Positions 25,325 to 27,381 of a stretch of 64,000 bases of DNA are shown here, one piece after another. The position numbers and the translations under genes are program-made. The DNA comes from Colwellia sp. 39_35_sub15_T18 (GTDB taxonomy: Bacteria; Pseudomonadota; Gammaproteobacteria; Enterobacterales; Alteromonadaceae). The stretch covers positions 1 to 64,000 of the forward strand of contig MAAE01000062.1 of NCBI GenBank assembly GCA_002162675.1, written 5' to 3'. The notes beneath the pieces were generated by a model. That model saw only the letters and a program-made list of their open reading frames with translations. It made no database searches and was not told where the DNA came from. The first letter of the stretch is position 1, and the number at the start of each line of letters is the position of its first letter.

Positions 25325-25405
25325 ATGAGCAAAATAATGATACTAGCAAAGCAATTTAATTTAACACATAGCCAACCTCGTTGGTGGTGGCATAACTCTA
25401 CTTAA
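25325..25405 (+). CDS. trpL: trp operon leader peptide (26 residues)
   Basis: An ATG at 25325 opens a 26-codon frame ending HSQPRWWWHNST and TAA (25403-25405). Three adjacent Trp codons (25382-25390) followed closely by mutually exclusive hairpins are the mark of a transcription-attenuation leader. An internal ATG at 25337 is also possible. The ribosome-binding site is weak. When Trp-tRNA is scarce, a ribosome stalled on the TGG codons would cover region 1 at 25391-25398. Confidence 0.85.
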   Translation: MSKIMILAKQFNLTHSQPRWWWHNST

Positions 25406-25485
25406 GTGGGTTGTGATAATTGCGTGTATCTTGCAAAAAGCATTTAAAATGCTAAAGCAGATCAAAAACAAATTTCAAAAACCCG
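25391..25485 (+). promoter_or_regulatory. trp attenuator: pause and antiterminator segments
   Basis: Region 1, CATAACTC (25391-25398), pairs over 8 bp with region 2, GGGTTGTG (25408-25415), counting two G-U pairs. Region 2, as GTGGGTT (25406-25412), can instead pair with region 3, AACCCGC (25479-25485). Region 3 is also the left arm of the terminator. A small palindrome, AGCATTTAAAATGCT (25439-25453), lies in between. The logic is that of the E. coli trp attenuator, with a longer gap between regions 2 and 3. Pairings were drawn by hand, without folding energies. Confidence 0.75.
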
Positions 25486-25503
25486 CTAAACTAGGCGGGT
25501 TTT
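25477..25503 (+). terminator. trp attenuator terminator
   Basis: AAAACCCGC (25477-25485) and GCGGGTTTT (25495-25503) form a 9-bp stem with a 9-base loop; the T-rich arm is followed by CTGCATTTT. It stands 72 bases after the trpL stop and about 190 bases before trpE, so it ends transcription when the leader is translated without stalling. Confidence 0.85.
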
Positions 25504-25536
25504 CTGCATTTTGAACAACCACTTTTTACAACAAAA

Positions 25537-25581
25537 CATTTACTACAAAAACATTTACTACAAAAACATTTACTACAAAAA
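25537..25581 (+). repeat. Three tandem 15-bp repeats between attenuator and second leader ORF
   Basis: CATTTACTACAAAAA occurs three times head to tail without change. The stretch is nearly free of G, so it would be unstructured in RNA and may keep the following ribosome-binding site open. A recent slippage expansion is the simplest origin. Confidence 0.8.
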
Positions 25582-25600
25582 AGAATAGAGAGAAAATACA

Positions 25601-25657
25601 ATGAACAAAACCAGAACATGGTTTCTTTGGTGGCTACAGCCAATTTATGCCGGATGA
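25601..25657 (+). CDS. Second Trp-rich leader peptide, directly upstream of trpE
   Basis: An 18-codon frame reads MNKTRTWFLWWLQPIYAG and stops with TGA, 35 bases before the trpE ATG. Three of 18 residues are Trp. AGAGAG lies 8-10 bases before the ATG. Unlike trpL it is followed by no visible terminator hairpin, so any control would be at the level of trpE translation or of mRNA stability. It lies after the attenuator and is made only on read-through. I know of no named peptide with this sequence. Confidence 0.6.
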   Translation: MNKTRTWFLWWLQPIYAG

Positions 25658-25692
25658 CTACATTTTAAATAAAATAAATTAAGAAGAAACTA

Positions 25693-27381
25693 ATGAGCCT
25701 AGATAACCTAGAGAACATAGATAACCAAAGTACAGCAACCGTATGTACCTTAACGGACAGCGCAAATTATCAAAGCGATCCTTTAAGCGTTTACCAATTG
25801 CTTTGCCATAATAAAGAAAATAACTTGCTGCTTGAGTCAGCAGAAATAGATCAAAAGCATTTATTACAAAGCCTATTACTAACCGATGCCGCCTTAAAAA
25901 TAGTTGCCAATGGGAATACCGTTACTTTTAATGCCCTAACACTTAATGGCCAAGCTGCATTGCAGTTTGCTGCAATTCAATTACAGCCTCATGCCGAACT
26001 TACGCTATCAAACGATAAACAAACCTTAACCGCCATTTTTTCCGATATCCCCACCGAGCTTGATGAAAAAGCTCGGTTAATGGCCGTTAATCCCTTTGAA
26101 AGTTTACGTTTATTTAAACGTATCGAAAACAGCAACAACCACCATTTTGCCATTTTTCTCGGTGGTGCATTCGCCTTTGACATGATCAGCATCAGTGAAA
26201 CCTTACCCGAGGTGCCCGACGGTGAAAATACTTGTCCTGATTTTGTTTATTATTTAGCTGAAACCTTAGTGGTTATTGATCATGAAGAGCGAAGTACTGA
26301 AATAATTGCTAATATTTTTTCTTGCTCAGAAACTGAAGCAACTCAAGCAAGTGTTCAGCAGCAGTTAACGGAGCGAGTAACGACAATAAAACGCTTATTG
26401 TCGGATGATATCACCACAGAACAAGTCGCTCATCTGAGTGAAATTGCAACACCAAATGCCTCAGGTTCAGATTCAGGATCAGGTTCACAAACAGTCACTG
26501 TTGATATTAGTGATGAGCAATTTTGTCAACATGTTGAACAGTTAAAAGAAAATATACGCGCAGGTGATATTTTTCAAGTGGTGCCCTCAAGAACTTTTTC
26601 ACTACCTTGTTTAGATAGCATAGCCGCTTATCAGGCATTAAAAATCACTAACCCAAGTCCTTATATGTTTTACCTTAAAGACAGTGACTTTTGTATATTT
26701 GGTGCCTCTCCTGAGTCAGCGATAAAATACCAACAAAACTCCCCTGAAGGCAAACGCCAAGTAGAAATATACCCTATTGCAGGTACTCGTCCGAGGGGAT
26801 TAAATAGTGACGGTAGCATCTCTTTAGATTTAGATTCGCGCATAGAGCTAGAGCTAAGACAAGATAAAAAAGAGTCAGCCGAGCACATTATGCTGGTTGA
26901 TTTAGCGCGCAATGATATCGCCCGAGTCTGTAAAGCAGGTACACGCCATGTTGCTGATTTATTAAAAGTTGACCGTTATTCTCACGTTATGCATCTCGTT
27001 TCACGTGTTTGTGGCACTTTACTCGAAGAGTTAGATGCTTTGCATGCTTATCAAGCTTGTATGAATATGGGTACGCTATCAGGCGCGCCAAAGGTGAAAG
27101 CGACGTCACTTATTAGAGAAATTGAAGGTAAACGACGTGGTAGCTATGGCGGCGCAGTAGGTTATTTAACCGGTGATGGTGAAATGGATACTTGTATTGT
27201 TATTCGCTCGGCATTTGTTAAAAACAATATAGCGCAAGTACAAGCAGGCGCAGGGGTTGTTTATGACTCAATCCCCCAAGCGGAAGCCGATGAAACCAAA
27301 CAAAAAGCACAGGCCGTGATCAATGCCGTTCTTTACTCAAATAAAGTAGCAAATGAATCATTAAATCAAGGAGCAAGCTAA
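25693..27381 (+). CDS. trpE: Anthranilate synthase component I
   Basis: TrpE turns chorismate into anthranilate with ammonia from TrpG. The chorismate-binding domain fills the C-terminal half: RAGDIFQVVPSRTFSLP, PYMFYLKD, FGASPESAIK, IAGTRPRG, ELRQDKKESAEHIMLVDLARND and YGGAVGYLTGDGEMDTCIVIRSA. The N-terminal feedback site pattern (LLLESAEID) is present. At 562 residues it is about 40 longer than E. coli TrpE, partly from a Ser/Gly linker (SGSDSGSGS near residue 257). The stop shares one base with the trpG start. Confidence 0.97.
   Translation: MSLDNLENIDNQSTATVCTLTDSANYQSDPLSVYQLLCHNKENNLLLESAEIDQKHLLQSLLLTDAALKIVANGNTVTFNALTLNGQAALQFAAIQLQPHAELTLSNDKQTLTAIFSDIPTELDEKARLMAVNPFESLRLFKRIENSNNHHFAIFLGGAFAFDMISISETLPEVPDGENTCPDFVYYLAETLVVIDHEERSTEIIANIFSCSETEATQASVQQQLTERVTTIKRLLSDDITTEQVAHLSEIATPNASGSDSGSGSQTVTVDISDEQFCQHVEQLKENIRAGDIFQVVPSRTFSLPCLDSIAAYQALKITNPSPYMFYLKDSDFCIFGASPESAIKYQQNSPEGKRQVEIYPIAGTRPRGLNSDGSISLDLDSRIELELRQDKKESAEHIMLVDLARNDIARVCKAGTRHVADLLKVDRYSHVMHLVSRVCGTLLEELDALHAYQACMNMGTLSGAPKVKATSLIREIEGKRRGSYGGAVGYLTGDGEMDTCIVIRSAFVKNNIAQVQAGAGVVYDSIPQAEADETKQKAQAVINAVLYSNKVANESLNQGAS

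Follow-up and report, generated by a model that had tools for sequence, protein, structure and literature searches.

Among the closest described counterparts of the locus analysed here are the trp leader and TnaC. The trp leader is a textbook attenuator, characterised by 1:2, 2:3 and terminator hairpins that exclude one another and by an intrinsic terminator between the leader peptide and the structural gene. In TnaC, according to published work, the nascent chain together with free L-Trp keeps release factor 2 (RF2) from acting at a UGA stop codon, and a Trp residue is located 12 residues before the last codon. The literature also describes two short ORFs in series in a single leader for Salmonella mgtCBR (mgtM and mgtP), a uORF setting the access to the next ribosome site for E. 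coli toiL-topAI, and the trans-acting micropeptide peTrpL for rhizobia (PMC7298713). In the openly accessible literature searched, we recognised no paper describing the second trp leader reported here; an earlier mention in subscription papers, such as comparative surveys of proteobacterial attenuators, is possible.

The window, i.e. the whole stretch of 64,000 nucleotides of Colwellia sp. 39_35_sub15_T18 DNA that was analysed, carries in front of trpE a leader ORF (ORF1, trpL; 25325-25405, + strand) which is translated as MSKIMILAKQFNLTHSQPRWWWHNST and contains a WWW run. A preliminary description of this DNA had assigned a complete attenuator to ORF1 and proposed that the leader RNA be folded. 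Folding predicts the competing conformations: a 1:2 hairpin (-9.9 kcal/mol), the antiterminator (2:3, GTGGGTT paired with AACCCGC, 25403-25487, + strand, -22.8 kcal/mol) and an intrinsic terminator, also found by the terminator scan (25478-25503, + strand, -14.7 kcal/mol), these energies being those of separately folded stretches. With hairpins predicted to be mutually exclusive, ORF1 belongs to a classical trp attenuator. The first attenuator (25379-25508) reached 22.3 bits with the Rfam model RF00513, below the gathering score of 41, which is a curated cut-off and no biological feature. RF00513 was the best of 11 Rfam matches at E up to 5, all of them under their gathering scores. Given this low score on a clear trp attenuator, the RF00513 model may be too narrow for the family. 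Pfam yielded no family for trpL, nor for the 26-aa frame containing ORF2 in one of the scanned loci (L024).

Beyond the terminator lies a second Trp-rich ORF (ORF2, 25601-25657, + strand), translated as MNKTRTWFLWWLQPIYAG, so that, as initially noted, two Trp-rich leader peptides follow each other in series before trpE. ORF2 has its own Shine-Dalgarno-like AGAGAG (25587-25592, + strand); such a motif precedes ORF2 in 75/78 copies compared to 7.8% of random positions. Its stop codon with the following base forms a UGA-C context (25655-25658, + strand), from which an AU-rich linker of nearly fixed length (25658-25692, + strand) leads over the trpE Shine-Dalgarno sequence AAGAAG (25681-25686, + strand) to trpE, encoding anthranilate synthase component I (25693-27381, + strand), 35 nt 3' of the ORF2 stop. 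The consensus terminator scan found no terminator on the + strand between ORF2 (25601) and trpE (25693), in agreement with the preliminary description, and ORF2 consequently lacks the detected intrinsic terminator by which a trp transcription attenuator is recognised. Between the first terminator and ORF2 the window contains 3.9 copies of a 15-nt tandem repeat (25525-25581, + strand), the exact unit of which did not turn up at any of the remaining 37 genus loci (38 in total).

These genus loci were picked by trpE alone, which was searched and matched in 39 genomes; one genome (G035) was left out, as only 55 nt of its contig precede the trpE match, leaving 38 assessable loci. ORF2 was present at all 38, ended in UGAC at all 38 and had a trpL-type ORF upstream at all 38. 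The 30 distinct DNA versions of ORF2 encode only 6 peptides, and pN/pS amounts to 0.111 over all 18 codons and to 0.063 over the last 12. For trpL at the same loci pN/pS is 0.724 when the last 18 codons are taken and 0.939 over the 12 codons preceding the last six. These values indicate that the second peptide is under far stronger constraint than trpL, and they show the selection on peptide sequence which marks a conserved-peptide regulatory uORF. The two checks proposed initially, conservation of reading frame and Trp codons in relatives and an excess of peptide-preserving substitutions, both came out in favour of ORF2: the frame and its Trp codons were found again at the 38 genus loci as well as in 77 scan copies, and substitutions preserve the peptide of ORF2 while trpL is more weakly constrained. 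In one further observation, the trpE match of locus L016 (G007) has three in-frame TGA codons, due to decay or to an assembly error.

Across the order, a pattern search allowing up to 3 mismatches matched 10/394 genomes, each of them once; they represent 7/114 genera and all belong to the same family. When every species was scanned in one genome, 78 stretches were obtained, 77 of them with the leader; the remaining one (L081, Nitrospirota) was a chance match without leader context and was dropped. The carriers are titled Colwellia, Thalassotalea, Thalassomonas, Pseudocolwellia, Cognaticolwellia, Litorilituus, Colwelliaceae/Alteromonadaceae/Gammaproteobacteria assemblies and, in one case, Endozoicomonas, nearly all of the 77 being labelled Colwelliaceae or Alteromonadaceae. 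A trpL-type ORF was located upstream of ORF2 in 77/77. The exceptional Endozoicomonas sp. G2_1 (L126) has a Colwelliaceae-type leader and is perhaps mislabelled; its trpE falls among the Thalassotalea rows, a placement with a support of 84/70 on a long branch in a tree without outgroup.

The gene following ORF2 was trpE in 59/77, a DAHP synthase in 14/77 and unreadable in 4/77, where the sequence was too short. In Thalassotalea and its kin the DAHP synthase (NCBIfam NF006421) is placed between ORF2 and trpE. Used as query, this DAHP synthase had no match at E up to 1e-60 in any of the 39 genomes from the genus of the window; in the order it matched 37/247 genomes at E up to 1e-80. A trpE tree built from 68 of these loci requires two changes of the trait. 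As either gene may come next, ORF2 stays with whichever gene is first. In Thalassotalea and its kin DAHP synthase is the first gene of the trp operon at 14 scan loci and at L046 (1570-2586), and we take this enzyme to be of type I-beta.

The 77 scan copies and the window together give 78 related copies, whose counts are not independent events; the stop codon is in view in 77 of them. Over the 78 copies the last 12 residues read WF[ILM]WWL[LQ]P[IL]YAG and are near-invariant, which extends to P, A and G. The retrieval pattern (codons for W, F, any, W, W, L or F, any, P, one with T in the middle, Y, A or G) demanded the majority of these residues, and it biases the pN/pS of 0.064 obtained from the retrieved copies, too. 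As the pattern itself required most of the conserved codons, the case for selection rests on the 38 loci chosen by trpE, to which this reservation does not apply.

The stop codon of ORF2 is UGA in 75/77 copies and is then always followed by C. Among 395 ORFs with 220 or more codons from the same loci, UGA accounts for 12.2% and UGAC for 2.3% of the stops, and the trpL stops found at these loci are UAA in 66/78. As a stop context, UGAC is weak in bacteria. Between the ORF2 stop and the start that follows lie 28-39 nt in 72/77 copies, whether trpE or DAHP synthase comes next; values outside this range were obtained for L057, L063, L095, L111 and L112, of which those for L057, L111 and L112 probably reflect mistaken automatic start assignments or the end of a contig. 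The non-aromatic C-terminal residues and UGAC are about as conserved as the Trp codons, and peptide, stop context and spacing together make up the conserved core.

Synonymous sites are constrained as well. The Leu codon at position -7 is CTN in 77/78 copies compared to 36% in the background, codon -6 ends in G in 74/78 (background 20% for Leu and 21% for Gln), and GGA encodes the last Gly in 48/78 versus 10%. Consensus folding of the coding block gave a GGC-NNNN-GCC mini hairpin and no other consensus structure. In the window this hairpin is GGC-UACA-GCC, within codons 11-14 of ORF2 (25632-25641, + strand), and part of the synonymous bias fits its maintenance. Given these constrained sites and a pairing with the own linker above that with permuted linkers (see below), a role of ORF2 at RNA level is possible.

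Compared to the known systems, ORF2 shares with the RF00513 type its richness in Trp and its place in the same leader, in which ORF1 provides the WWW run and the folds before trpE; it differs by having no detected terminator and by being conserved over the whole peptide. The likeness to TnaC consists in a short Trp-containing peptide, a UGA stop read by RF2 (75/77 in ORF2) and a WF motif placed 11-12 residues ahead of the final one. W7 of ORF2 is located 11 residues before G18; the Trp of TnaC lies 12 before the last codon. The TnaC residues D16, I19 and P24 lack counterparts, ORF2 having W10, Q/L13 and G18 at the matching distances, and on this ground ORF2 does not belong to the TnaC family. 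Moreover, its operon is a biosynthetic one and not tna, and a Rho site is replaced by a linker of about 35 nt. The arrest motif RAG/P of SecM has a resemblance in ORF2, where an aromatic/hydrophobic segment precedes I-x-A-G at the P-site end; Arg163 is replaced by a Tyr before A-G and Pro166 by the stop codon in the A site, so that ORF2 does not carry the SecM motif. Two ORFs in series are found in mgtCBR, too, but mgtM and mgtP are reported to respond to ATP and proline and to control transcription. In toiL-topAI the uORF also sets access to the next ribosome site, but there a structure lies on that site and the response is to antibiotics.

We favour the explanation that ORF2 is a translated, cis-acting regulatory leader peptide which works via its amino-acid sequence and its termination and forms a second tier below the attenuator, and we give this reading a probability of roughly 0.45. 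Transcripts extending past the trp attenuator carry ORF2 immediately 5' of the first structural gene, whether this is trpE or DAHP synthase. A ribosome finishing WF[IL]WWL[QL]P[IL]YAG may terminate slowly or arrest on UGAC. As a ribosome reportedly extends about 12 nt beyond the codon being read, its leading edge would then adjoin the start region of the next gene, and initiation there would be hindered. Under Trp shortage ribosomes would stop far short of this position, at W7, W10 or W11, and leave the start region free. With a linker of about 35 nt, a ribosome parked at the stop would border on the start site without clearly covering it, and the effect may be of either sign. A more specific and rather doubtful version is that ORF2 acts as a hitherto undescribed arrest peptide which senses free tryptophan or another aromatic metabolite in the tunnel and blocks release at UGAC. 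This would amount to end-product repression at the level of translation, with trpE or DAHP synthase as target, and would mirror TnaC on the biosynthetic side, one level below a classical attenuator.

The two-tier control proposed in the preliminary description, transcription attenuation followed by coupling of trpE translation to stalling in the second peptide, is plausible as regards a second tier on translation; conservation points to the C-terminus and UGAC and not to stalling at the Trp codons as the event that frees trpE. Such a release would correspond to classical translational attenuation, in which codons 7-10 of ORF2 pair with the trpE start region until a ribosome stalled on the Trp codons masks them. 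In the window fold GGUUUCUU indeed pairs with the trpE Shine-Dalgarno sequence (z -1.9), which is predicted to involve ORF2 codons 7-9, and in 26 representatives the pairing of codons 6-10 with the own linker surpasses that with permuted linkers (p 0.0035), whereas three control segments gave no such signal in these representatives. Over all 73 rows (five of the 78, L057, L065, L095, L111 and L112, being omitted from the folding tests because their starts are unclear, distant or missing) the z value is -5.5, a figure inflated by kinship. In the model the mean energy for opening the start region of the 26 representatives drops from 3.9 kcal/mol in the free RNA to about 3.0 kcal/mol with a ribosome on the Trp codons. 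The difference in accessibility between a ribosome on UGA and one stalled at Trp exceeded all 40 permutations, but that between free RNA and Trp stall was reached by 4-5 of the 40. Although a switch structure thus has statistical support, the modelled gain in accessibility is small (mean about 0.8 kcal/mol over the 26 representatives, below 0.5 kcal/mol in the window), the pairing site varies between species, and many of the representatives listed pair only weakly. Hiding of the Shine-Dalgarno sequence, expected of a translational attenuator, is therefore weak on average and species-dependent. Furthermore, the fixed P-I-Y-A-G and UGAC would be left unexplained. We have accordingly rejected sequestration of the trpE ribosome site as a general mechanism and keep it as an unlikely rival; according to the folding models, a sequestering hairpin could contribute in some species, but the conserved core does not appear to lie in it.

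A plain translational coupling or reinitiation, in which ORF2 merely brings ribosomes to the next start, would account for the SD-like motif, the steady short linker and the apparent lack of a terminator, and reinitiation at leader ORFs has been proposed in the literature. It is nevertheless improbable: coupling needs no particular peptide, yet ORF2 has a pN/pS of 0.11, and the proteobacterial peak reported in these sources for such leaders is 10-13 bp compared to about 35 here. The strong conservation of the peptide would suit a micropeptide acting in trans, for which the rhizobial peTrpL is the precedent, but ORF2 stands directly before the first trp-operon gene in 73/77 copies, i.e. in all that are readable, and a trans-acting peptide would need neither a conserved stop context nor a conserved spacing; we consider this reading very unlikely. 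Full tandem trp attenuators, which occur in several other families, suggest that ORF2 could be the relic of a second complete attenuator that has lost its terminator. A relic would not hold its peptide so constant at 38/38 loci, and as selection disfavours it we regard it as hardly credible for the function of ORF2, while such an origin is possible.

Most other groups sampled have a single trp leader. A terminator after each of the last two leaders was found at 13/13 loci of genus g24 (family f7), 5/5 of family f15, 2/2 of f14 and 2/3 of f1g11, as judged by a simple detector that misses some terminators. Tandem trp attenuators are located 5' of DAHP synthase at L165-L169, L172-L182, L184 and L186-L189, and 5' of trpE at L137, L139 and L147, the second terminator being undetected in L139. 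Between trpL and the operon, 17/29 trpE loci of family f25 and the single f12 locus contain a second W-R-W ORF (e.g. MIQRHKQTWRWQKS) without a detected terminator, and six further f25 loci have a longer F-W-R-W-Q frame. Genus g4 of family f1 has a second Trp-rich ORF in 22/22 loci, ISWRWWQFS or RWHWWRLP-like, with a terminator detected in some only. The W-R-W and g4 loci are L191-L194 and L196-L208 (f25), L140 (f12), and L134, L150 and L218-L237 (f1g4). Stacking of trp leaders is thus a wider habit, of which the Colwelliaceae peptide represents one branch.

To the attenuator of the trp leader this family, that of marine Colwellia-type bacteria, adds a second leader gene whose peptide is kept far more strictly than trpL and whose stop codon hardly varies. 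If ORF2 arrests ribosomes, it would add a tier at translational level, possibly a metabolite-sensing one, to the control of trp, and would provide a new natural peptide for the study of the tunnel and of the silencing of RF2. The second trp leaders of related families make the evolution of leader peptides directly testable.
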